This document shows positions 11,928 to 57,829 of a stretch of 64,000 nucleotides of DNA, piece by piece. The first letter of the stretch is position 1. The number at the start of each line of letters is the position of its first letter. The position numbers and the translations under genes are program-made. This DNA comes from Liolophura sinensis (lineage: Eukaryota; Mollusca; Polyplacophora; Chitonida; Chitonidae): assembly GCF_032854445.1 (NCBI RefSeq), contig NC_088297.1, positions 25,431,127 to 25,495,126 of the forward strand, written 5' to 3'. Under the pieces are notes generated by a model. The model worked only from the letters and a program-made list of their open reading frames with translations. It ran no database searches and was not told the origin of the DNA.

Positions 11928-14900
11928 TGATTTATGCTCAGGCGTAGGCCATACGTGAATCTGTGTTTTCGATGGTATATGCTCAGACGTAGGCCATACG
12001 TGAATCTGTGTTTTCGATGATTTATGTTTAGGCGTAGGCTATACGTGAATCTGTGTTTTCGATGGTTTGTGTGCAGACGTAGGCTATACGTGAATCTGTG
12101 TTTTCGATGGTTTGTGTGCAGGCATAGGCTATACGTGAATCTGTGTTTTCGATGGTTTGTGTGCAGACGTAGGCTATACGTGAATCTGTGTTTTCGATGA
12201 TTTGTGTTCAGACGTAGGCTATACGTGAATCTGTGTTTTCGATGGTTTATGTGCAGGCATAAACTATACGTGAATCTGTGTTTTCGGTGATTTATGTGCA
12301 GGCGTAGGCTGTACGTGAATATGTGTTTTCGATGATTTGTGTGCAGATATAGGCTATACGTGAATCTGTGTTTTCGATGGTTTATGTGCAGGCATAAACT
12401 ATACGTGAATCTGTGTTTTCGATGGTTTATGTGCAGGCGTAGGCTATACGTGAATCTTTGTTTTCGATGGTTTATGTGCAGACATAGGCTATACGTTAAT
12501 CTGTGTTTTCGATGGTTTGTGTGCAGGCGTATACTATACGTGAATCTGTGTTTTCGATGATTTATGTGCAGGCGTAGGCTGTACGTGAATCTGTGTTTTC
12601 GATGATTTGTGTTCAGACGTAGGCTATACGTGAATCTGTGTTTTCGATGGTATATGTGCAGGCGTAGGCTATACGTGAATCTGTGTTTTCTATGGTTTAT
12701 GTGCAGGCATAGGCTATACGTGAATCTGTGTTTTCGATGGTTTATGTGCAGACGTAGGCTATACGTGAATCTGTGTTTTCGGTGGTTTGTGTGCAGGCGT
12801 ATGCTATACGTGAATCTGTGTTTTCGATGGTTTATGTTCAGACGTAGGCTATACGTGAATCTGTGTTTTCTATGGTTTATGTGCAGGCATAGGCTATACG
12901 TGAGCCTGTGTTTTCGATGGTTTATGTCTAGACGTAGGCTATACGTGAATCTGTGTTTTCGATGGTTTATGCTCAGGCATAGGCTATACGTAAATCTGTG
13001 TTTTCGATGGTTTATGTTCAGGGGTAAGCTATATGTAAATCTGTGTTTTCGATGGTTTGTGTGCAGGCATAGGCCATACGTGAATCTGTGTTTTCAATGG
13101 TACATGCTCAGGCGTATGCTATACGTGAATCTGTGTTTTCGATGGTTTATGTGCAGGGGTAGGCTATACGTGAATCTGTGTTTTCAATGGTTTATGTTCA
13201 CACGTAGGCTATACGGGAATCTGTTTTTTTCGATGATTTATGTACAGGCATAAGCCATACGTGAATCTGTGTTTTCGATGGTTTATGTTCACACGTAGGC
13301 TATACGTGAATCTGTGTTTTCGATGATTTGTGTTCAGACGTAGGCTATACGTGAATCTGTGTTTTCGATGGTTTATGTGCAGGCATAAACTATACGTGAA
13401 TCTGTGTTTTCGGTGATTTATGTGCAGGCGTAGGCTGTACGTGAATATGTGTTTTCGATGATTTGTGTGCAGATATAGGCTATACGTGAATCTGTGTTTT
13501 CGATGGTTTATGTGCAGGCATAAACTATACGTGAATCTGTGTTTTCGATGGTTTATGTGCAGGCGTAGGCTATACGTGAATCTGTGTTTTCGATGGTTTA
13601 TGTGCAGACATAGGCTATACGTTAATCTGTGTTTTCGATGGTTTGTGTGCAGGCGTATACTATACGTGAATCTGTGTTTTCGATGATTTATGTGCAGGCG
13701 TAGGCTGTACGTGAATCTGTGTTTTCGATGATTTGTGTGCAGACGTAGGCTATACGTGAATCTGTGTTTTCGATGGTTTATGTGCAGGCGTAGGCTATAC
13801 GTGAATCTGTGTTTTCTATGGTTTATGTGCAGGCATAGGCTATACGTGAATCTGTGTTTTCGATGGTTTATGTGCAGACGTAGGCTATACGTGAATCTGT
13901 GTTTTCGGTGGTTTGTGTGCAGGCGTATGCTATACGTGAATCTGTGTTTTCGATGGTTTATGTTCAGACGTAGGCTATACGTGAATCTGTGTTTTGTATG
14001 GTTTATGTGCAGGCATAGGCTATACGTGAGCCTGTGTTTTCGATGGTTTATGTCTAGACGTAGGCTATACGTGAATCTGTGTTTTCGATGGTTTATGCTC
14101 AGGCATAGGCTATACGTAAATCTGTGTTTTCGATGGTTTATGTTCAGGGGTAAGCTATATGTAAATCTGTGTTTTCGATGGTTTGTGTGCAGGCATAGGC
14201 CATACGTGAATCTGTGTTTTCAATGGCACATGCTCAGGCGTATGCTATACGTGAATCTGTGTTTTCGATGGTTTATGTGCAGGGGTAGGCTATACGTGAA
14301 TCTGTGTTTTCAATGGTTTATGTTCACACGTAGGCTATACGGGAATCTGTTTTTTTCGATGATTTATGTACAGGCATAAGCCATACGTGAATCTGTGTTT
14401 TCGATGGTTTATGTTCACACGTAGGCTATACGTGAATCTGTGTTTTCGATGGTTTATGCTCAGGCATAGGCTATACGTGAATCTGTGTTTTCGATGGTTT
14501 ATGTGTAGACGTAGGCTATACGTGAATCTGTGTTTTCGATGGTTTATGCTCAGGCATAGGCTATACGTAAATCTGTGTTTTCGATGGTTTATGTGTAGAC
14601 GTAGGCTATACGTTAATCTGTGTTTTCGATGGTTTATGTTCACACGTAGGCTATACGTGAATCTGTGTTTTCGATGGTTCATGCTCAGGCATAGGCTATA
14701 CGTAAATCTGTGTTTTCGATGGTTTATGTTCAGGCGTATGTTATACGTGAATCTGTGTTTTCGATGGTTTACTTTCAGGCGTAGGCTATACGTGAATCTG
14801 TGTTTTCAATGGTTTATGTTCACACGTAGGCTATACGGGAATCTGTTTTTTTCGATGATTTATGTACAGGCATAAGCCATACGTGAATCTGTGTTTTCGA

Positions 14901-17798
14901 TGGTTTATGTTCACACGTAGGCTATACGTGAATCTGTGTTTTCGATGGTTTATGCTCAGGCATAGGCTATACGTGAATCTGTTTTCGATGTTTGATGTTC
15001 AGGCGTAGGCTATACGTGAATCTGTGTTTTCGATGGTTTATGTGCAGACGTAGGCTATACGTGAATCTGTGTTTTCGGTGGTTTGTGTGCAGGCGTATGC
15101 TATACGTGAATCTGTGTTTTCGATGGTTTATGTTCAGACGTAGGCTATACGTGAATCTGTGTTTTCTATGGTTTATGTGCAGGCATAGGCTATACGTGAG
15201 CCTGTGTTTTCGATGGTTTATGTCTAGACGTAGGCTATACGTGAATCTGTGTTTTCGATGGTTTATGCTCAGGCATAGGCTATACGTAAATCTGTGTTTT
15301 CGATGGTTTATGTTCAGGGGTAAGCTATATGTAAATCTGTGTTTTCGATGGTTTGTGTGCAGGCATAGGCCATACGTGAATCTGTGTTTTCAATGGTACA
15401 TGCTCAGGCGTATGCTATACGTGAATCTGTGTTTTCGATGGTTTATGTGCAGGGGTAGGCTATACGTGAATCTGTGTTTTCAATGGTTTATGTTCACACG
15501 TAGGCTATACGGGAATCTGTTTTTTTCGATGATTTATGTACAGGCATAAGCCATACGTGAATCTGTGTTTTCGATGGTTTATGTTCACACGTAGGCTATA
15601 CGTGAATCTGTGTTTTCGATGGTTCATGCTCAGGCATAGGCTATACGTAAATCTGTGTTTTCGATAGTTTATGTTCAGGCGTATGTTATACGTGAATCTG
15701 TGTTTTCGATGGTTTACTTTCAGGCGTAGGCTATACGTGAATCTGTGTTTTCAATGGTTTATGTTCACACGTAGGCTATACGGGAATCTGTTTTTTTCGA
15801 TGATTTATGTACAGGCATAAGCCATACGTGAATCTGTGTTTTCGATGGTTTATGTTCACACGTAGGCTATACGTGAATCTGTGTTTTCGATGGTTTATGC
15901 TCAGGCATAGGCTATACGTGAATCTGTGTTTTCGATGGTTTATGTGTAGACGTAGGCTATACGTGAATCTGTGTTTTCGATGGTTTATGCTCGGGCATAG
16001 GCTATACGTAAATCTGTGTTTTCGATGGTTTATGTGTAGACGTAGGCTATACGTTAGTCTGTGTTTTCGATGGTTTATGTTCACACGTAGGCTATACGTG
16101 AATCTGTGTTTTCGATGGTTTATGCTCAGGCATAGGCTATACGTAAATCTGTGTTTTCGATGGTTTATGTGCAGGCGTAAGCTCTACGTGAATCTGTGTT
16201 TTCGATGGTTTATGCTCAGGCATAGGCCATACGTAAATCTGTGTTTTCGATGGTTTGTGTGCAGGCATAGGCTATACGTGAATCTGTGTTTTCGATGGTT
16301 TATGTGCAGGCGTAGGCTATACGTGAATCTGTGTTTTTGACGGTTTTGTGCTGGCGTAGACTATACGTGAATCTGTGTTTTCGATGGTTTGTGTGCTGGC
16401 GTAGGCTATACGTGAATCTGTGTTTTCGATAGTTTATGTGCAGGCGTAAGCTCTACGTGAATCTGTGTTTTCGATGATTTATGTTCAGGCGTATGCTATA
16501 CGTAAATCTGTGTTTTTTGATGGTTTGTGTTCAGGCGTAGGCTATACGTGAATCTGTGTTTTCGATGATTTATGTTCAGGCGTAAGCTATACGTGAATCT
16601 GTGTTTTCGATGGTTTACTTTCAGGCGTAAGCTATACGTGAATCTGTGTTTTCGATGATTTATGTTTAGGCGTAGGCTATACGTGAATCTGTGTTTCCGG
16701 TGATTTATGTGCAGGCATAGGCTATACGTGAATCTGTGTTTTCGATGGTTTATGTGCAGGCATAGGCCATACGTGAATCTGTGTTTTCGATAGTTTTTGT
16801 GCAGACGTAGGCTATACGTGAATCTTTGTTTTCGATGGTTTATGTGCAGGCGTAAGCTCTACGTGAATCTGTGTTTTCGATGATTTATGTTCAGGCGTAT
16901 GCTATACGTAAATCTGTGTTTTTTGATGGTTTGTGTTCAGGCGTAGGCTATACGTGAATCTGTGTTTTCGATGATTTATGTTCAGGCGTAAGCTATACGT
17001 GAATCTGTGTTTTCGATGGTTTACTTTCAGGCGTAAGCTATACGTGAATCTGTGTTTTCGATGATTTATGTTTAGGCGTAGGCTATACGTGAATCTGTGT
17101 TTCCGGTGATTTATGTGCAGGCATAGGCTATACGTGAATCTGTGTTTTCGATGGTTTATGTGCAGGCATAGGCCATACGTGAATCTGTGTTTTCGATAGT
17201 TTTTGTGCAGGCATAGGCCATACGTGAATCTGTGTTTTCGATAGTTTTTGTGCAGGCGTAGGCTATACGTGAATCTGTGTTTTCGATGGTTTATGTGCAG
17301 GCGTAAGATATACCTGAATCTGTGTATTCGATGGTATATGTTCAGGCGTAGGCTATACGTGAATCTGTGTTTTCGATGGTTTATGTGCAGGCATAGGCCA
17401 TACGTGAATCTGTGTTTTCGATGGTATATGTTCAGGCGTAGGCTATAAGTGAATCTGTGGTTTCGATGGTTTGTGTGCAGGCATAAACTATACGTGAATC
17501 TGTGTTTTCGATGGTTTATGTTCAGGCGTAGGCTATACGTGAATCTTTGTTTTCGATGGTTTACTTTCAGGCGTAGGCTATACGTGAATCTGTGTTTTTT
17601 ATTTTTTATGTTTAGGCGTAGGCTATATGTGAATCTATGTTTTCGGTGATTTATGTTCCGACGTAGGCTATACGTGAATCTGTGTTTTTGATGTTTTATG
17701 TGCAGGCGTAATCTATACTTAAATCTGTGTTTTCGATGGTTTATGTGCAGACGTAGGCCATACGTGAATCTGTGTTTTCGGTGATTTATGTATAGGCG
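11928..17798 (+). repeat. 45-bp satellite, about 130 units, with higher-order structure
   Basis: A 45-bp unit is repeated for about 5.9 kb. Its most constant words are CTATACGTGAATCTGTG and GTTTTCGATGGTTTATG; the variable part is the CAGGCGTAGG region (CAGACGTAGG, CAGGCATAGG, CACACGTAGG and others). Because 45 is a multiple of three and the unit lacks stops in some frames, long open frames arise on both strands, encoding 15-residue repeats such as RRRLYVNLCFRWFMC. These are not likely proteins: frames are broken by single-base unit variants and there is no start or splice context. Larger blocks are duplicated: about 1126 bp (12180-13305 and 13306-14431), offsets of about 1170 and 1441 bp linking 13.8-14.9 kb to 15.0-16.1 kb, and 406 bp near 16448 and 16854. 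Confidence 0.97.
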
Positions 17799-21572: not shown

Positions 21573-22050
21573 CTACAAAATGGCTATTTTCTCTAGACAT
21601 AAGGCTATTATTGTAGTGGCTAGTATAGACATAGATGTGAGCTGTACGGACGTGCTGGCAGACGGCGGATGAATCTTCTCAGTCATGCATAACGGTGCAG
21701 GCGTCGGTTCGGTGACCTCCACAGCGATGTGAAGCAAGTTCATGGTCACTTCAAGGAATGGAAAAACCAAGCCGCCACGAGTTTCGTTCAGGCGTTCTAC
21801 GAAAGAATCCAGGAGTTCCCACTCGTGGCTGAAGAATTCATCCGTCACCGTGAAATTTTCCGACACTGGATACACGTCAACGTTTGTGATGTCAGATCGA
21901 CGAGAGCCAATCGTAAGTGTGCACATCTGCTCGTCCGCTGTGGCGTTGGTGGCACAACCAATGGTCGTGCGGTACGCTTGGAACCACGTCATCGCGCCAG
22001 TGGACGCCACCACGATTTGTTTTCCGAAAATGGGGATGATTTTACTAACA
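21573..22050 (-). CDS. Cys-loop ligand-binding domain, terminal exon (AChBP-like)
   Basis: This is the last exon of the minus-strand gene, 478 nt ending in TAG. The acceptor ATCTGTTTCAG supplies the third base of a split Ala codon. Counting from the first complete codon of the 24431 exon, it encodes residues 100-257. Family marks: the strand before the Cys-loop (VVASTGAMTWFQAYRTT), a Cys-loop C131-C142 with DEQ before the second Cys, GS at 147-148, and EWELL at 175-179. The loop has 10 residues between cysteines instead of 13 and lacks the hydrophobic FPF that contacts the channel in receptors; a hydrophilic Cys-loop is typical of acetylcholine-binding proteins. The loop B Trp is Arg (GSRRSD) and no vicinal Cys pair is seen in loop C, so classical acetylcholine binding is doubtful. 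Sequons lie at N134, N164 and N187. Instead of the four channel helices there is a Pro/Ser/Thr linker (210-238), then a hydrophobic tail (239-257), possibly a GPI-anchor signal or short anchor. Confidence 0.85.
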
Positions 22051-22095
22051 CTGAAACAGATGGAATAACAAGATTTAACTCAGTTATCAGACTGC

Positions 22096-22190
22096 TCAAT
22101 TTATCTGACTGGTATTTTGCGCCGTGCTCAAGAATATTTCACTTACATGACGGCCGCCAGCATTATGGTGGAAGGAAACCGGCTCAATTA
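22096..22190 (-). mobile_element. SINE-A 3' end, minus orientation, intronic
   Basis: Reads on the plus strand from ATCTGACTGGTATTTTGCGC through CTCAAGAATATTTCACTTAC to CATTATGGTGGAAGG. It sits in the 442-nt intron between the exons at 22493-22605 and 21573-22050. Confidence 0.85.
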
Positions 22191-22225
22191 AGCCAGCAAA
22201 CATTTTATACAGACTTGACCGTACG

Positions 22226-22379
22226 TGGGAAGGTCTTCCAGCAACCTGTGGATGGTCGTGGGTTTCCCCCGGACTCTGCCCGGTTTCCACCCACCATAAC
22301 GCTGGCTGCCGTTGTATAAGTGAAATATTCTTGAGTACGGCGTAAAACACCGATCAAATAAATAAATAAATAAATAAAT
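22226..22379 (+). mobile_element. SINE-A 3' half, plus orientation, intronic
   Basis: Runs from CGTGGGAAGGTCTTCC through GGATGGTCGTGGGTTTCC and CCACCATAACGCTGG to (AAAT)n. It faces the copy at 22096-22190 across 35 bases, so the short intron contains an inverted SINE pair with a stem of up to about 95 bases. Confidence 0.9.
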
Positions 22380-22492
22380 ATGCAGACTTGATTTTAGTTG
22401 AACTCCAGTTAACAAGTTGACCAGTATGGGGCAATTCTGTGGATTAAAACCAATGCTTTACTGCATGCTGAAGCATGCACATAAAAACTTAC

Positions 22493-22605
22493 GCATTGCT
22501 AATGGTGATATCCGGCGTCCACACGTTGTCCTCAGGGAGGACGAGTTGTCGGACTTTATTCTCAGTCTGCTGTACGTCCCATCTCAAACGGGGGTCCGTC
22601 CACTC
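22493..22605 (-). CDS. Cys-loop ligand-binding domain, middle exon
   Basis: 113 nt on the minus strand with a clean acceptor (TCACACACAG) and consensus donor (GC/GTAAGT); it enters in phase 0 and leaves in phase 2. It encodes residues 62-98: EWTDPRLRWD, the highly conserved loop D block of Cys-loop receptors, and NVWTPDITISN, the loop A block (consensus W-x-P-D-x-x-x-x-N). The Trp of loop D (W63) and W90 with P92 and D93 are all present, so the fold is intact here. It joins the previous exon as VWLEL/EWTD, which matches the family exactly, so no exon is missing between them. Confidence 0.9.
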
Positions 22606-22636
22606 CTGTGTGTGAGAAAAAAAAAGATGGCGTCAA

Positions 22637-22756
22637 TTAATTTATTTATTTATTTAACTGGTGTTTTACAGCGCTCTCAAGAATATTTCACTTATACGAC
22701 GGCGACCAGCATTATATTGTGGGAGAGGCAGGGAGAAACCCACGACCATTCGGTGT
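22637..22756 (-). mobile_element. SINE-A 3' half, minus orientation, intronic
   Basis: Reads on the plus strand from TTATTTATTTAACTGGTG through CTCAAGAATATTTCACTTAT to ACCCACGACCATTCGG. It lies about 30 bases upstream of the acceptor of the exon at 22605 in the direction of transcription, in sense orientation relative to the gene. Confidence 0.85.
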
Positions 22757-24024
22757 CCGTAAATTCAACGACTAATATCAGCCAAATGACGCAATAGATG
22801 TTACAAATTTTTATTCTCCAGAATGATATTTTTCAGATATTCCCGAGAATAACGTCAAACAGCATTAAGATAAATGGAATAAATACAAAGGCTATATCAT
22901 GCAGTTAAAGTCAGTTCTTTCTTTTCTACGTCTTTGGGATTACACAGAAACGTGGAAATACTTTGGCTATCACAACAGTCAACCTAGACGTTCCTGACCA
23001 ATAACAGCGAGACAACATTCAACAAAAAACACCCCAAAAATCTAAACTGTAATAAATTAGGGCGAAGTCATGTAAAGAGACACGAAATGGTCTAGGCGTG
23101 AAACTTTAATCTGTATTTAGATCGTGAAGGTCTACGATTTATGAATTTGTGAATCACAAATGAAAAGAATTCTCCCCGTAGTTTTGTAATGGCCACATTG
23201 GTTAAACAATTTTAGCAATATTTAAGCAGTTCTTTAGGCACTTATGGATAACATCAACTGTTGTCGTGCCAGGTCGCCTTAAAGCGAAGCAACAATGCAC
23301 AGAAATAAATATAACAGGTGCACTGCTATTGCACATATAGTATGCTCTAAAAAAAATGGGCCATTTTAAGACTATCAAAGATACTTCCCTCTTAATCTCT
23401 TCCATGCAGTTGATTATTTAGACGATCCCTAGACTTCTAATGCGAACAGTGTTGTGGAACCCATTTCTCTTACAGTGTAATCATGTTGACAGGAATCCTA
23501 TTAGAAAAAGCCACGGCAGCAGCTGTATACCATGTGATCCAAATGTAATCGTTTCATGGATACTTCAACTGCTGGCAGAAAAGTATTTTAGCTTCACCTC
23601 CCCAAAGCAGGTGTTTGTGACGGTCTCAGACAAATGGTTCATTACCTCCAACTCATTAGGAATCGCTTACAGGAAGTACCTAAGTTCGTGATTGTACTTT
23701 TTGTAGTCGGTTTTTGATCCACAGTATACAAGAAATGTGGCTTATGAAAGAAAGAAAAGAAGTTTGCAACACGTGGCACGTTTTCCTAAAATAACCTTTG
23801 CACCACCTGTCTGCATGCATAAGGCTTAGTCGTTTTGAACATCATGTTGGTTAACTCACGAGTATGTTTCCTGTACTTGCCCCACATATTTATAGTGCTG
23901 CCTCACTAGAATGCCATTTCGAAGACAACAGATATGATGTTTAGAGTATACACACATCGAGCCGACCAGTGGTTGTCTATGCATGTAAGCTTGAATGCAG
24001 AGCATCAATCAAGTAATTAGCAGG
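22757..24024. other. intron sequence, nothing recognised
   Basis: Part of the 1642-nt intron between the Cys-loop exons at 24248-24431 and 22493-22605. It holds unique AT-rich DNA and no open frame above 85 codons. An 83-codon plus-strand frame (23440-23691) has no family motif. Confidence 0.45.
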
Positions 24025-24154
24025 ATTACAAATAGCCGTAAGCCCAATTACGAATAACCGTAAGCCTAATTGCAAATAGCCGTACGCCTAACTGGAAATA
24101 GCCGTACGCCTAACTACAAATCCGTAAGCCCATTTACGAATAACCGTAAGCCCA
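24025..24154 (+). repeat. 22-bp tandem repeat, 6 copies, intronic
   Basis: Six units of about 22 bp of the form ATTACGAATAACCGTAAGCC with single-base variants (AATAGCC, GTACGCC); one unit is 2 bp short. It lies in the intron, about 95 bases from the donor of the exon at 24248. Confidence 0.9.
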
Positions 24155-24247
24155 GTTTTTACTAGATACCACCACCAGAAATGAGCGTTAAAATAGAAGT
24201 ACCCGAACGTCAACATGAAACTGTTTATACTCATATGTTCTACTCAC

Positions 24248-24431
24248 CAGTTCTAGCCAGACGGTCAGATCGAGTTCACCTTTATCGAGATCGAGGCTGT
24301 GAATGTGAGAGAGCCAAGTAGAGGCTGAGATGTTCGCGGGCTCGTGCGTGATAACACGAGGCCGGACACGAACATCAAAATGGTCCGATAATTTAGTGTC
24401 CAAGAGTTCTTCGTCAGACAGGCCGGAGTAA
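24248..24431 (-). CDS. Cys-loop ligand-binding domain, N-terminal exon
   Basis: 184 nt on the minus strand. The acceptor has a long pyrimidine tract (TCTCTCTTTCTTTAAG) and the donor is consensus (CTG/GTGAGTA). It enters with the last base of a split codon and leaves in phase 0. It encodes residues 1-61 of the visible protein: an N-terminal helix-like LSDEELLDTKLSDHF, the family signature VRVRP at 20-24, then the first strands (HIHSLDLDKGELDLTVWLEL). In receptors this block reads as a helix, R-x-R-P, and strands ending in W-L. A sequon is at N33. The signal peptide and start codon must lie in one or more exons further upstream (above 24431), which I could not find among the repeats there. Confidence 0.85.
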
Positions 24432-25483: not shown

Positions 25484-25902
25484 ATGTATGTATGTATGTA
25501 TGTATGTATGTATGTATGTATGTATGTATGTATGTATGTATGTATGTATGTATGTATGTATGTATGTATGTACGTATGTATGTATGTATGTATGTATGTA
25601 TGTATGTATGTATGTATGTATGTATGTATGTATGTATGTTTGTATGTATGTATGTATGTATGTATGTATGTATGTATGTATGTATGTATGTATGTATGTA
25701 TGTATGTATGTATGTATGTATGTATGTATGTATGTATCTATGTATGTATGTATGTATGTACGTATGTATCTATGTATGTATGTATGTATGTATGTATGTA
25801 TGTATGTATGTATGTATGTATGTATGTTTGTATGTATGTATGTATGTATGTATGTATGTATGTATGTATGTATGTATGTATGTATGTATGTATGTATGTA
25901 TC
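25484..25902 (+). repeat. (GTAT)n tetranucleotide microsatellite, about 420 bp
   Basis: About 105 copies of GTAT/ATGT with a handful of single substitutions (TACG, TTTG, ATCT). Three long open frames encoding repeated MYVC exist only because the 12-bp codon cycle has no stop. They are not genes. Confidence 0.99.
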
Positions 25903-27255
25903 TAAGTGTGTATGCTTGGGCTGTTAGGTCGTACTTAGCAATTTTTTAGTTACGTGACCAGGAAGTCATTACGTGTATGTACATATACTATGTCTTCTTG
26001 TGTCAATGCGAGTCCATGCTGACAAAGTGCTGCCCCACTGAAGTATGATGCTCCACCCAGACACATTATACTGACACCGGGCCAACCGGTCATGTTTCCT
26101 TGCTCTAACCTCTCAGCGCTGGGTTCCACGCAAGGCGACAATAAGTATCATGTTTAAAGTCTTTGGTATGACCCGACTCAGGTTTGATAAAGGGGTTTCC
26201 TGACTTCAGGGCGGACGTTCTAGACATTAGGTCACCGAAGCGGCTTGATAAGAAATGATAATTATTATAAATTGTGAGATGATAAATAGCACTTAGGACA
26301 AATTACGTTATACGGAACATAACACTATTTTTTCAAAATTTATGCGTGGTTGTGAGGAAAGGGACCAGCTGTGGAGTAATGTGAAGGTTCACTGGGATCG
26401 GCTCCAAGATCTACCAATAGTTGGTATAGTCCATCTTCCCGCCAGAAATGTTGATACCTCGCTATAGTCTTCATCGCAAGCTTGATTAAATGAAGATAGT
26501 GTAGTCAGGATTGAACAAAAATTTCTGAGAGAATTTATTTCTTACACCTAAAAAGTCTTAGAAGGGAAACAGCAGTATGAGGTCTTGATTCTGAATACAG
26601 CCATTACACGCCACAACCAACTCTCACCTGGCGCACTTATGATGACAGGTGACCTCATTATGGTACCGGTCTGTTGCTTGATATCCAATATTACCGTGCA
26701 TTTATACCTGACATAAGGGTTAACCTGTGCATCTTTATTTTTGTTCTTTATGTTAACATGTGAACTGAACTATTAATACTTTAAATATTTACCTCTTACG
26801 TCTTCTACATAAATATATTTATGAAAGTGACACGACAGGCCGGCGTCACGTACACAACGCCCATTAAGAGATGGAATCGTGCTGAGTGCGAGTACACTTA
26901 TAGCATTAGAGTCGGCCACACGCCCGCTGCACCGTTTGACATTTCAGCGTTCACGCCTGCCGCAATTGAGGTATCGGGAGAATCTGACCCGTTAAAGTCA
27001 CCCATGTTGACAAATCACACGTATCTACATATCACCATCACACGAGTGTGTGTGGTCCCGACTGAGGGGTTTTGTTATATTCTGTCTAATTATGGCAGGT
27101 GAGGGGTTGGGGGAAAGCGGGGGAAGGGGAGGGGGGTTGGGCTATTTACCTGACCGATATCATATAAGTGAGGACTGATTTCTGAGTAGGCCTTACGGTG
27201 TTAAGACAGCAGACAGATAAATAATTAAATCTGTTAATTAAATCTCATCGTTTCA
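25903..27255. other. unique stretch with one weak candidate exon region
   Basis: A GC-richer island at 26830-27080 is open on the plus strand (93 codons). On the minus strand it has an ATG in very good context (CAACATGGG, ATG at about 27003-27005) that opens a 35-codon frame starting MGDFNGSDSPDTSIAAG, with a possible donor (GGC/GTGAAC). That could be a first coding exon, but nothing confirms it. The rest shows no repeat or gene. Confidence 0.25.
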
Positions 27256-52830: not shown

Positions 52831-54208
52831 CAAAGATGATATGAAAAATGATATAAATACCGCACATGTGGGTCATAGTTTCTATTTCATGTCAGTTCGA
52901 CCATATTGATAATGGGAAGCAGGTCGTTGGTAGTAGGCTAAAAGGCGATTGCAGTTTCAATCCTAGTTTTCCTATTCTCTAGCTCCTAGAGAATTTGTAG
53001 ATTCAGCCGCTCTCACCGCAAACGCAGTCTTGGTCACTGTAAGCCGTGGCCATTGTTCGTGTAGCCGATTGCGAAGTCTTCCGACCATACGGAATTATCA
53101 ACTCTGTACGTCCCAGGTGGGAAAGTTCGTCAATAACATGCCAAAGGTCATTGGTTTACCACGGGCACTGCGTTTTTCTGGCCATACCACCCATGAAGAT
53201 CGTACAAGCTAGACATTCTTGATTATAACATTCAACCACAATCAAATAAATACGTAAATCCCGAAAACGAAACCTTCTCACACCCTTCTCAAGCCGCAAT
53301 AGCTAACTTACACTAACGACTATAGCTCAACATACACGACCTTACTAACATACGTTTTAATAGCCCCAAACGTGGACTTTTTTGTACATTTTGTGCGACA
53401 CAACTCAGTGTTGAATCCGGATGGCTCGCTAACCTTATCCTAGACCAGTGGCGCCTTAAGAATAGCAACTAACAACCCTGCATTTCTTTGTTTACCTAAT
53501 TCTGCTTAAGCCATGGTGGTAAGGGGCGTCTGATTTCTACCACACTTAAGAATTTATTTGAACAGTTAGAATAAAAACCTAACTGGGGTACATTGACAAC
53601 AAGCGGTATATCACCGGTTACATGTGACCATTTGCCAGCTTTCACACTGCCGTCAATGCTCCGGTTTTACTCTCTACGCTGCAGTGTTTTTGTCTTATGA
53701 CTCACATTGAGGTTTACATGTAGGCTTATTCTTGACAAACTGTCAACCTGCATAATAACAATTAATACATTCATGGCCTTAAAAATGTGTCACCAAGCCT
53801 GCAGTCTGGGTGGCAACTGAATGCCCGAAAAACGGAATCTCTGTACGAGTTGGTTATGGCGTCAGAGAAATGGTTGGAGGGCGAAGAGCGGTAAGGGGAG
53901 GGTGGGGGCAGTTAGCAAACAGCTTTCAGTCTGAACAAACTACATACAACCCCAAGAGAACGTTTGTATTATTAATATGAGTTTGTGAGAGAATATGGAA
54001 TTAATTAAGTGGAAATTCGTATGGATATTGACATCAGGGAAGCTTGGAGAGGTCATAGGGTGAAATTAATATGAATGGTAAGGCGGGTGTCAGAATCACA
54101 CTGGGTCATTTGGTGCTGAAAAGCTTGGTTCATTTGTCACTTTACACCAAGAGGTAGGCTCAGTGGAGAGACGGAAATGACAAAACCATTTCAAAATAAC
54201 CGAAAACA
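52831..54208. other. unique stretch with a SINE-C scrap
   Basis: A remnant similar to SINE-C is at about 53035-53190. The rest is unique with no gene seen. Confidence 0.4.
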
Positions 54209-57200
54209 GAAACAGTAAATAAAGCTGTTGCTCACAGCCCGCGTTGGTGTGACAGAGACAGTAAATGAAGCTGTTACTGCGAGCTCGCGTTGCTGTGATA
54301 GACACAGTAAATAAAGCTGTTACTGCGAGCCCGCGATGGTGTGACAGAGACACTAAATGAAGCTGTTACTGCGAGCTCGCGTTGCTGTGATAGACACAGT
54401 AAATAAAGCTGTTACTGCGAGCCCGAGATGGTGTGACAGAGACAGTAAATGAAGCTATTACTCCCAGCCCGCGTTAGTGTGACAGAGACAGTAAATAAAG
54501 CTGTTGCTCCCAGCCCAAAAAGGTGTGACAGAACAGTAAATGAAGCTGTTACTACCAGTCCGTGTTGGTATGACAGAGACAGTAAATAAAGCTGTTACTC
54601 CCAGCACGCGTTGGTGTCACAGAGACAATAAAAAAAGCCGTCACTCCCAGTCCGCGTTGGTGTGACAGAGACAGTAAATAAAGCTGTTACTCCTAGTCCG
54701 CGTTGGTGTGACAGAGACAGTAAATGAAGCTGTTGCTCCAAGCCCATGTTGGTGTGACAGAGACAGTAAATAAAGCTGTTACTGCCAGTCCGCGATGATA
54801 TGAGAGAAAGCTGTTGCTCTCATCCTGCGTTGATGTGCCAGAACAGGAATAAAGCTGTTACTCCCAGTCCGCATTAATGTGACCGAGACTGTAAATAAAG
54901 CTGATACGGCGAGCCCGCGTTGGTATGACAGAGACAGTAAATAAAGCTGTTACTGCGAGTCCGCGTTGGTGTGACAGAGAGTATACATAAAGCTGTTGCT
55001 CCCAGCCCGCGTTGGTGTGACACAGACAGTAAATGAAGCTGTTACTGCAAGTCCGCGTTGGTGTGACGGAAATAGTTAATAAAGCTGTCACTCCCATCCT
55101 GCGTTGATGTGACAGAGACTGTAAATAAAGCTGTTTCTGCGAGCCCGCGTTGGTGTGACAGAGACAGTAAATGAAGCTAATGCACCCAGCCCACGAAGGT
55201 GTGACAGAACAGTAAATAAAGCTGTTACTGCGAGTCCGTGTTGGTGTGACAGAGACGTAAATGAAGCTGTTGCTCCCAGCCCACGCTGGTGTGACAGAGA
55301 CAGTAAATAAAGCTGTTACTACCAGCCCTCGATGGTGTGACAGAGACAGTAATTGAAGCTCTTGCTCCCAGCTCACGTTGGTGTGACAGAAAAGTAAATA
55401 AAGTTGTTACTGCTAGTCCGCGTTGGTATGAGAGATAGCTGTTGCTCTCATCCTGCGTTGATGTGCCAGAACAGGAATAAAGCTGTTACTCCCAGTCCGC
55501 ATTAATATGACAGGAATAGTAAATAAAGCTGTTACTGCGAGTCCGCGTTGGTGTGACCAAGACTGTAAATAAAGCTGTTGCTCCCAGTCCGCGTTGGTGT
55601 GACACAGACAGTAAATGAAGCTGTTACTGCGAGCCCGCGATGGTGTGACAGAGACAGTAACTGAAGTTGTTGCTCCCAGCCCACGTTGGTGTGACAGAAC
55701 AGTAAATAAAGTTGTTACTGCGAGCCTGCGTTGGTGTGACAGAGACAGTAAATGAAGCTAATGCTCCCAGCCCACGAAGGTGTGACAGAACAGTAAATAA
55801 AACTGTTACTGCCAGTCCGTATTGGTATGACAGAGGCAGTAAATAAAGCTGTTACTCCCAGCACGCGTTGGTGTTATAGAGACAGTAAATGAAGCTGTTG
55901 CTCCCAGTCCACACTAATGTGACAGAACTGTAAATAAATCTGTTACTCCCATCCCGTGTTGGTGTGACAGAGACAGTAAATAAAGCTGTTACTCCCAGTC
56001 CGCGTTGGTGTTACAGAGACAGTAAATAAAGCTGTTACTCCCAGCACGTGTTGGTGTTACAGAGACAGTAAATAAAGCTGTTACTCCCAGCACGTGTTGG
56101 TGTTACAGAGACAGTAAATGAAGCTGTTGCTCCCAGTCCACACTTGTGTGACAGAACAGTAAATAAATCTGTTACTCCCAGCCCGCGTTGGTGTGACAGA
56201 GACAGTAAATAAAGCTGTTACTCCCAGTCCGCGTTGGTGTGACAGAGACAGTAAATGAAGCTGTTACTCCCAGCTCACGTTGGTGTGACAAAACAGTAAA
56301 TAAAGCTGTTACTGGCAGTCCGCGTTGGTATGAGAGAAAGCTGTTGCTCTCATCCTGCGTTGATGTGCCAGAACAGGAATAAAGCTGTTACTACCAGTCC
56401 GCATTAATGTGATAGAAACAGTAATTAAAGCTGTTACTGCGAGTCCGCGTTGGTGTGATCGAGACTGTAAATAAAGCTGTTGCTCCCAGCCCGCGTTGGT
56501 GTGACAGAACAGTAAATGAAGCTGTTACTCCTAGTCCGCGTTGGTGTGACAGAGACAGTAAATGAAGCTGTTGCTCACAGACCGCGTTGGTGTGACCGAG
56601 ACTGTAAATAAAGCTGTTGCACACAGCCCCCGTTGTTGTGATAGAAACAGTAAATAAAGGTGTTACACCCATCCTGCGTTGGTGTGACAGAGACCGTAAA
56701 TAAAGCTGTCACTCCCATCCCGAGTTAGTATGACAGAGAAGTAAATGAAGCTGTAACTGGAAGCCCGCTCTGGTATGACAAAGTAAATAAAGCTGTTGCT
56801 TCCAGCCCGAGTTGATTTGACAGAAATAGTTAATAAAGCTGCCTGTCCCATCCCGCGTTGGTGTGACAGAGACAGTAAATAAGGCTGTTACTGCGAGCCC
56901 GCGTTGTTGTGACAGAGACAGTAAATGAAGCTTTTACTGGGAGCCCGCGTTGTTGTGACATAGACAGTAAATGAAGCTGTTGCTCCCAGTCCGCGTTGGT
57001 GTGACCGAGACTGTAAATAAAGCTGTTGCACACAGCCCCCGTTGTTGTGATAGAAACAGTAAATAAAGGTGTTACACCCATCCTGCGTTGGTGTGACAGA
57101 GACCGTAAATAAAGCTGTTGCTCCCAGCCTGCGTTGATTTGACAGAAATAGTTAATCAAGCTGCTACTCCAATCCCGCGTTGGTGTGACAGAGACAGTAA

Positions 57201-57829
57201 ATAAAGGTGTCACTCCCATTCCGAGTTGGTGTGACAGAGACAGTAAATAAAGCTGTTACTTCCATATTGCGGTGGTGTGACAGAGACAGTAAATAAAGCT
57301 GTCACTCCCATCCTGCGTTGGTGTGACAGAGACAGTAAATGAAGCTGTCACTCCCATCCTGCGTTGGTGTGACAGAGACAGTAAATAAAGCTGTTGCTCC
57401 CAGCCTGCGTTGATTTGACAGAAATAGTTAATCAAGCTGCTACTCCAATCCCGCGTTGGTGTGACAGAGACAGTAAATAAAGCTGTTACTGCCAGTCCGC
57501 GATGATATGAGAGAAAACTGTTGCTCCCATCCTGCGTTAATGTGACAGAACAGGAATAAAGCTGTTACTCCCAGTCCACATTAATGTGACAGAGACAGTA
57601 AATAAAGCTGTTGCTCCCAGCCTGCGTTGATTTGACAGAAATAGTTAATAAAGCTGTTACTCCAATCCCGCGTTGGTGTGACAGAGACAGCAAATAAAGC
57701 TGTTACTGCGAGTCCGCATTAATATGACAGGAACAGTAAATAAAGCTGTTACTGCGAGCCCGCGTTGATGTGACAGAACAGTAAATAAAGCTGTTGCTCT
57801 CCGCCCGCGTTGGTGCGCCGTCACAGGCA
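54209..57829 (+). repeat. 46-bp minisatellite, nearly 80 copies
   Basis: The unit is about 46 bp: GAGACAGTAAATAAAGCTGT, then TACTCCCAGCCCGCGTTGG and TGTGACA. The positions TACT/TGCT, CCCAG/GCGAG and AATAAAG/AATGAAG vary between units. Several irregular units lack parts (for example TGAGAGAAAGCTGTTGCTC). Because 46 is not a multiple of three, long open frames appear only in patches of irregular units, on the minus strand (up to 172 codons). They are not genes. AATAAA occurs in more than half of the units on the plus strand. Confidence 0.97.

Follow-up and report, generated by a model that had tools for sequence, protein, structure and literature searches.

What does a nicotinic-type ligand-binding domain do when its gene ends before the channel begins? 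The question is raised by a minus-strand gene in a stretch of 64,000 nucleotides from the chiton Liolophura sinensis (C3:25431127-25495126, referred to here as the window; coordinates without a contig name are window positions 1-64,000), in which three exons encode the extracellular domain of a Cys-loop receptor, a tail and then a stop codon. Acetylcholine-binding proteins (AChBPs), the textbook stand-ins for the outer domain of the nicotinic receptor, have this general layout, and where they came from and what they do in nature are themselves unsettled questions. The window protein is probably a membrane-tethered, channel-less nicotinic domain that would not bind acetylcholine on its own. This reading is supported because the product matches the ligand-binding domain (LBD) profile PF02931, no channel region was found, the Cys-loop is short, the tail is hydrophobic at its end, and key residues of the binding site are replaced.

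Gene structure and coding evidence

Profiles and queries were run against the whole genome sequence (609,464,459 bases in 632 contigs), in which other chiton loci are named by contig and position. The three exons, described in a preliminary description of this DNA as having matched phases and good splice sites, do join in frame across AG/GT borders to give 257 residues and a stop (Table 1). The same description had recognized the extracellular domain of a Cys-loop receptor, and Pfam agrees: residues 11-195 match Neur_chan_LBD (PF02931; 96.2 bits, E = 2.5e-27), the sole further match being DUF4380 (E = 0.021), under the cut-off of that family. In a search of the PDB the domain of the human nicotinic acetylcholine receptor (nAChR) subunit beta-3 came first (E = 4.2e-19), with AChBPs from 1.8e-12. 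A chance origin of the open frame is excluded: 257 codons stayed open in none of 20,000 sequences simulated from the adjacent non-coding DNA. The GC content is 0.509 in the coding sequence and 0.585 at third codon positions, against intron values of 0.385 and 0.421. A genome search for recent duplicates found none, the top non-self match having an E-value of 4.2e-4, and the gene is, as judged from the assembly, single-copy and intact across its known exons. AlphaFold run on exon c alone gave a pLDDT of 36.7, too low for use.

The window gene and two other channel-less chiton genes, C3:924 and C3:1368, share one exon plan: exon a starts with a single base of a split codon, and the two junctions that follow are in phase 0 and phase 2. 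The plan was also seen in the C4 genes described below wherever border DNA was read. Because that single base completes a codon begun elsewhere, there must be a further exon on the 5' side. The candidates for a signal-peptide exon with the top scores, 57949-57846 (cag/GTGAAT) and 49130-49063, were unconvincing, and a third, 25461-25388, had a weak donor. As a yardstick for the missing exon, the signal-peptide exon of C3:924 (MENMATFIFVIGLFVAGTLADSN) was located within L046 (C3:927200-929200).

Search for a channel region

The preliminary description had the frame stopping without any channel helix, and this withstood every search made. A human alpha-7 query covering M1-M3 found no channel exon in the window (best E = 1.0), and twelve chiton M1-M3 queries gave a best E-value of 0.23 in window positions 1-22050, which take in the 21.5 kb downstream of the gene; as a control, all 12 chiton channel loci were recovered by the others at E<=7.4e-17. 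A search of the whole genome with the channel profile PF02932 listed 106 matches, only one of which is on C3, at 6.48 Mb and 19 Mb away. At E<=0.001 this profile search is imperfect, as it missed six channel exons with M1 visible by eye (C1:9238, C1:9341, C1:59743, C3:6474, C8:10465 and C8:33254). Three divergent channel genes (L020, L044 and L047), with M1 recognizable by eye and M1-M3 in two of them, have no PF02932 match at that threshold; in L020 and L044 the loop-B Trp is missing as well.

From the domain end to the stop codon, no splice donor scored above zero with the scoring matrix, the best one nearby (21848, score 0.8) lying within the domain; a tail arising by read-through into an intron is ruled out by the same result. 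As far as can be read from its DNA, the window gene is channel-less.

Channel-less genes and the length of the Cys-loop

Among the PF02931 matches listed (150 of 152), 57 extend at least to position 212 of the 216 in the profile, and 45 of these run directly into PF02932. Six of the other 12 carry M1 by eye, and the remaining six come to an end with no M1 (C2:18481, C3:905, C3:924, C3:1368, C4:6028 and C4:6079). When the window gene and C3:7325 are included, the genome holds at least eight channel-less genes, and weaker exons may be missed. Five of the eight (C3:905, C3:924, C3:1368, C3:7325 and C2:18481) are of a soluble style, their stop codon coming at most a few residues after the domain, and three (the window gene, C4:6028 and C4:6079) have a tail. 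C3:7325 (L051, C3:7325201-7325560; soluble type, C-x9-C) was not among the PF02931 matches listed and was found with a C4 query.

Both cysteines of the Cys-loop are present in the window protein, with 10 residues between them. The loop has 13 residues in all 20 channel exons in which it was readable (of 51), 9 or 10 in all eight channel-less genes (9 in C3:7325, 10 in the other seven), and 12 in the AChBPs of Lymnaea and Aplysia; a shorter Cys-loop thus accompanies pore loss in the exons read. These counts come from a first pass over the fetched loci, which gave 13 in 16 channel exons and 10 in the window gene, C3:924, C3:1368 and C2:18481, and in which five unrelated open frames matching the pattern were set aside; from a looser second pass, which added 13 for L002, L023, L034 and L038, 10 for C3:905 and 9 for C3:7325; and from reading the loops of C4:6028 and C4:6079 by eye (10 in each). 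A study of a spider AChBP (PMC4569296) gives a Cys-loop of 16 and notes that AChBP loops vary and must serve some purpose other than communication with a pore.

The two tailed C4 genes are probably the better entry point for experiments. A third copy on C4 (L025 and L041, C4:6032136-6037487; C4:6033) has exons 1 and 2 very similar to those of C4:6026; its exon 3 was not found in the available pieces before an assembly gap. Nicotinic-type genes also form clusters at C8:26.5-26.85, C8:47.3-47.6, C7:48.75-48.82, C2:23.47-23.57 and C1:9.06-9.39 Mb, consistent with the reported molluscan expansion.

The C-terminal tail

After the domain, the window protein continues for 49 residues and the C4 pair for 40 and 44. 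The window tail contains, in order, SAS/AST/STS, a spacer, the hydrophobic segment SILATTIIALCL, whose last residue stands 6 before the C-terminus, and EKIAIL; the C4 tails carry the hydrophobic segments LCYVLCMIFLSP and FLFSLIFFYLCLCL, ending 5 and 4 residues before the C-terminus. In a test devised after the tails had been seen, 4000 of 12,137 random read-through tails from the window served as a control. The mean hydropathy of the last 18 residues was matched by 15 of the 4000 for the window gene and by 77 and 15 for the C4 tails, and that of the best segment by 127 for the window gene and by 174 and 38 for the C4 tails.

Between the two C4 proteins, 56 of 109 positions are identical in the domain part, 10 of 16 in the stalk and three of 17 in the hydrophobic end. 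A conserved stalk ahead of an unconserved hydrophobic end would be as expected of a cleaved glycosylphosphatidylinositol (GPI) signal. For the window gene a GPI signal is less certain because E and K follow the hydrophobic segment, and a single membrane span is the alternative. The tail as a remnant of M1 is ruled out, with 31 residues preceding its hydrophobic segment; in the channel exons translated, M1 begins two or three residues past the domain. In AChBP rings the C-termini and the Cys-loops lie on one face (PMC3423370), and therefore such a tail would seat a ring on the membrane in the manner of a receptor.

The acetylcholine site

The positions that we take to form the acetylcholine site of Lymnaea AChBP are Tyr89, Trp143, Tyr185, Cys187-Cys188 and Tyr192 (Lymnaea numbering, with which the indices agreed). 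The window protein aligned to them shows Y89S, W143R, Y185R, C187G, C188L and Y192F, with W53 kept; the alignment of loop C is uncertain, but no cysteine occurs there. With S, R, R, G, L and F at the key positions, the divergence noted in the preliminary description goes beyond standard acetylcholine use, and the acetylcholine site is lost on the principal face, Trp53 remaining. In the C4 genes Tyr89 is replaced (by S and V), and Trp143, Tyr185 and the cysteine pair are kept; C3:924 keeps all of the positions. It was also suggested earlier that the protein may sense another ligand. This is possible, and a role as a non-alpha partner fits the loss of the principal face together with the retained complementary-face Trp equally well.

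Phylogenetic position

The tree comprised 27 rows: the window gene, five of the seven other channel-less genes, two AChBPs, four references and 15 of the 51 channel genes; C3:905, a near-copy, and C3:7325, found later, were left out. With all columns, the window protein falls inside the channel-less set, AChBPs included (84/92). When the Cys-loop columns are removed, it is sister to the tailed C4 pair (83/64), and the three stand in a set with the C3 genes and the AChBPs (69/84), C2:18481 lying outside. Approximately unbiased (AU) tests rejected joining the window gene to one divergent channel group (p = 0.0369) and did not reject a single clade of the three tailed genes (0.461). The window protein is 24.5% and 27.3% identical to the C4 pair, and five channel-less exon-3 pieces share YRT-x-[TI]-x-C up to the Cys-loop in an ungapped alignment of 111 columns. 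These comparisons suggest that the window gene belongs with or near the chiton AChBP-like genes, its place in the tree being weakly supported; a kinship with the C4 pair is favoured, not proven.

The soluble-type chiton genes group with the snail AChBPs (93/87 with C2:18481; 77/91 in the other tree, without it), which suggests that loss of the channel predates the divergence of the two lineages. Soluble chiton AChBPs, if they are such, would date the AChBP before the chiton-snail split. How snail AChBPs are related to the receptors, to the annelid AChBP and to ACCBPs was described as unclear in a 2012 study of the snail proteins (PMC3423370).

A possible mode of action and its alternatives

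On the favoured reading, the signal peptide would be removed and the domain would fold as one subunit of a five-fold ring; the tail would be exchanged for a GPI lipid or retained as one membrane span, so that the ring would be seated on the outside of the cell, resting on the side that in a receptor faces the channel. The subunit's own principal face would be unable to form a standard acetylcholine pocket, and its most likely part would be that of a non-alpha partner: it would supply the complementary face (Trp53) when paired with alpha-type subunits, for example those of its C4 relatives. The ring might then capture or buffer a ligand at the surface without gating a current. Taken whole, as a tethered channel-less domain acting as a non-alpha partner in a pore-less ring, this is the best explanation that we can offer, at somewhat less than an even chance. 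Rather unlikely is the larger picture of a chiton branch of GPI-anchored pore-less rings, with C4 alpha-type and window non-alpha subunits, existing beside soluble AChBPs that predate the chiton-snail split. If the tethered form is true, it would amount to an experiment made by nature, with the binding ring of a receptor kept at the membrane and no pore beneath it.

Several observations weigh against this reading. No convincing signal-peptide exon was found on the minus strand in the 39.5 kb upstream, the partner idea has one retained Trp as its basis, and the best-segment hydropathy of the window tail is equalled by 127 of the 4000 random tails; the E, the K and the four more residues after its hydrophobic stretch are untypical of a GPI signal. 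The branch of the window protein is long (3.39 in the full-column tree), the eight channel-less rows stay together in just 20% of 200 bootstrap trees without the Cys-loop columns, and the AU test rejected neither the window gene outside the channel-less set (p = 0.223) nor its union with the channel genes L028 and L029 (p = 0.0996). L028, at 30.1% over 146 columns, is closer in identity than the C4 pair, human and worm-type channel domains reach 25-27% (8bx5, 26.6%; human beta-3, alpha-6 and alpha-9, 25-26%), and the top PDB matches are channel subunits rather than AChBPs.

The protein might instead be a soluble, secreted relative of AChBP or ACCBP, its tail an ordinary C-terminal extension, acting in body or extrapallial fluid on another ligand or on calcium carbonate. 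Among the channel-less chiton genes found, five out of eight stop at the domain, one of them with a signal-peptide exon; ACCBP, a molluscan homologue of AChBP, acts on shell growth (PMC3423370, PMC5379566); and the window protein has four N-glycosylation sequons, one of them within the Cys-loop. However, hydrophobic C-termini such as those of the window gene and both C4 relatives are uncommon among random tails, the C4 stalk is conserved ahead of an unconserved hydrophobic end, and two such domains are reported for oyster ACCBPs (PMC5379566), against one in the window gene. We regard this alternative as unlikely.

A tethered homopentamer that senses or sinks a ligand other than acetylcholine at its own remodelled interface, which joins the ligand suggestion of the preliminary description to the tail, is improbable. 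The principal-face residues are altered together, some to charged ones (W143R, Y185R), and the fold motifs are kept, but the changes resemble loss as much as remodelling.

Decay of the gene, once AChBP-like and now stripped of its signal exon and its binding site, would account for the long branch, for the absence of a close genomic copy and for the failure to find a convincing signal exon. Against this, the frame of 257 codons is intact, the three intron positions of C3:924 are kept, both Cys-loop cysteines are present, and GC at third positions is well above the approximately 0.4 of the introns, and we hold decay to be decidedly improbable.

Finally, the gene might encode a regular channel subunit, with M1-M4 exons that escaped the searches or are located at a greater distance, but this is very improbable indeed: PF02932 at E<=0.001 is also silent after the six exons with M1 by eye and its silence is not proof alone, but the M1-M3 queries that found nothing downstream do recover the control exons (L020 and L044 included), the translated channel exons carry M1 onward in the same exon whereas the window exon ends in a stop with no usable donor, and the window Cys-loop is short, as in the channel-less genes.

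Comparison with known systems

Like the molluscan AChBPs (Lymnaea, Aplysia and Biomphalaria) and those of one annelid and a spider, the window gene has a nicotinic-type LBD alone, with a Cys-loop of altered length. The snail proteins are secreted homopentamers, and the variant known as ACCBP acts in shell growth (PMC3423370, PMC5379566). There are two differences. AChBPs are soluble proteins with nothing beyond the domain, and the window protein bears a tail with a hydrophobic end; the aromatic box and the vicinal cysteines are intact in the AChBPs of Lymnaea and Aplysia, and the window protein has lost the principal face. The preliminary description had called the gene AChBP-like; this stands for the layout but not for the soluble form that ends at the domain, the tailed plan being shared with the two C4 relatives. 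We do not class it as an AChBP because the binding residues and the soluble end, two defining features, fail. ACCBP and the window gene are both channel-less AChBP homologues in a shell-forming mollusc; ACCBP is secreted, glycan-rich and, in the oyster study, has two such domains (its sequence was outside the tree).

Within the chiton, the soluble-type genes resemble the window gene in being channel-less, in their C-x9-10-C loop and in the exon plan (borders read for C3:924 and C3:1368), but they stop right past the domain; the cysteine pair and the loop-B Trp are retained in C3:905, C3:924 and C3:1368, and a PDB search with C3:924 finds AChBPs. The C4 pair shares with the window gene the absence of a channel, C-x10-C, the hydrophobic-ended tail, the YRT motif and the loss of Tyr89, but keeps the cysteine pair, Trp143 and Tyr185.

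According to a 2019 survey, each of eight mollusc genomes has 4-19 genes of the LBD-only type and 2-11 of the LBD-TM type (PMC6896357), and channel-less architecture alone is not news because LBD-only genes are already counted there. Its 'LBD' and 'LBD-TM' classes are the same architectures defined by SMART domain count, its table has no chiton, and its main text does not contain the terms 'AChBP' or 'binding protein'. Among the paper titles listed, none concerns a GPI-anchored AChBP or one from a chiton, which does not show absence. In short, the lost acetylcholine site and the hydrophobic tail, as read from the sequence, would set the window gene apart as a variation on the AChBP layout.

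Feature coordinates and repeats

Table 1. Coordinates of the gene in the window and of its tailed relatives on C4
Feature	Position	Strand	Remarks
Exon a	24248..24431	-	N-terminal part of the LBD to loop D (VWLEL); phase 0 end, ctg/GTGAGT
Intron a-b	22606..24247	-	GT-AG; one copy of the dispersed repeat core CAAGAATATTTCACTTATACGACGG
Exon b	22493..22605	-	EWTDPRLRWD...WTPDITISNA, loop A region with Ser for the canonical Tyr; phase 0 in, phase 2 out, tgc/GTAAGT
Intron b-c	22051..22492	-	GT-AG; two copies of the dispersed repeat core CAAGAATATTTCACTTATACGACGG
Exon c	21573..22050	-	Cys-loop (C-x10-C), loops B and C, EWELL, domain end, tail, stop codon
Post-domain sequence	21573..21722	-	49 residues, VEVTEPTPAP to LCLEKIAIL, then stop; may be a GPI signal or one membrane anchor
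ATTAAA	21375..21380	-	Possible polyadenylation signal, 193 nt beyond the stop; sequence match only
L040, tailed channel-less gene	C4:6028408-6028849		Vicinal cysteines; GPI-like C-terminus; intact in exons read
L016, tailed channel-less gene	C4:6079487-6079939		Vicinal cysteines; more hydrophobic of the C4 pair, segment nearest the end; intact in exons read

A Pfam search with 10 of the 96 filtered open frames of the window gave no family at E<=0.01. The repeat core CAAGAATATTTCACTTATACGACGG, searched with up to 3 mismatches, occurs in eight copies in the window (3700, 6722, 10296, 10457, 22129, 22309, 22678 and 30523), three of them in introns of the gene, and in none of 100 shuffles. Two tandem arrays, at 11931-17798 (45-bp unit, 130 copies) and 54206-57815 (46-bp unit, 80 copies), were also recognized, and an ATGT microsatellite of about 108 copies (25484-25914) lies about 1 kb upstream of exon a.

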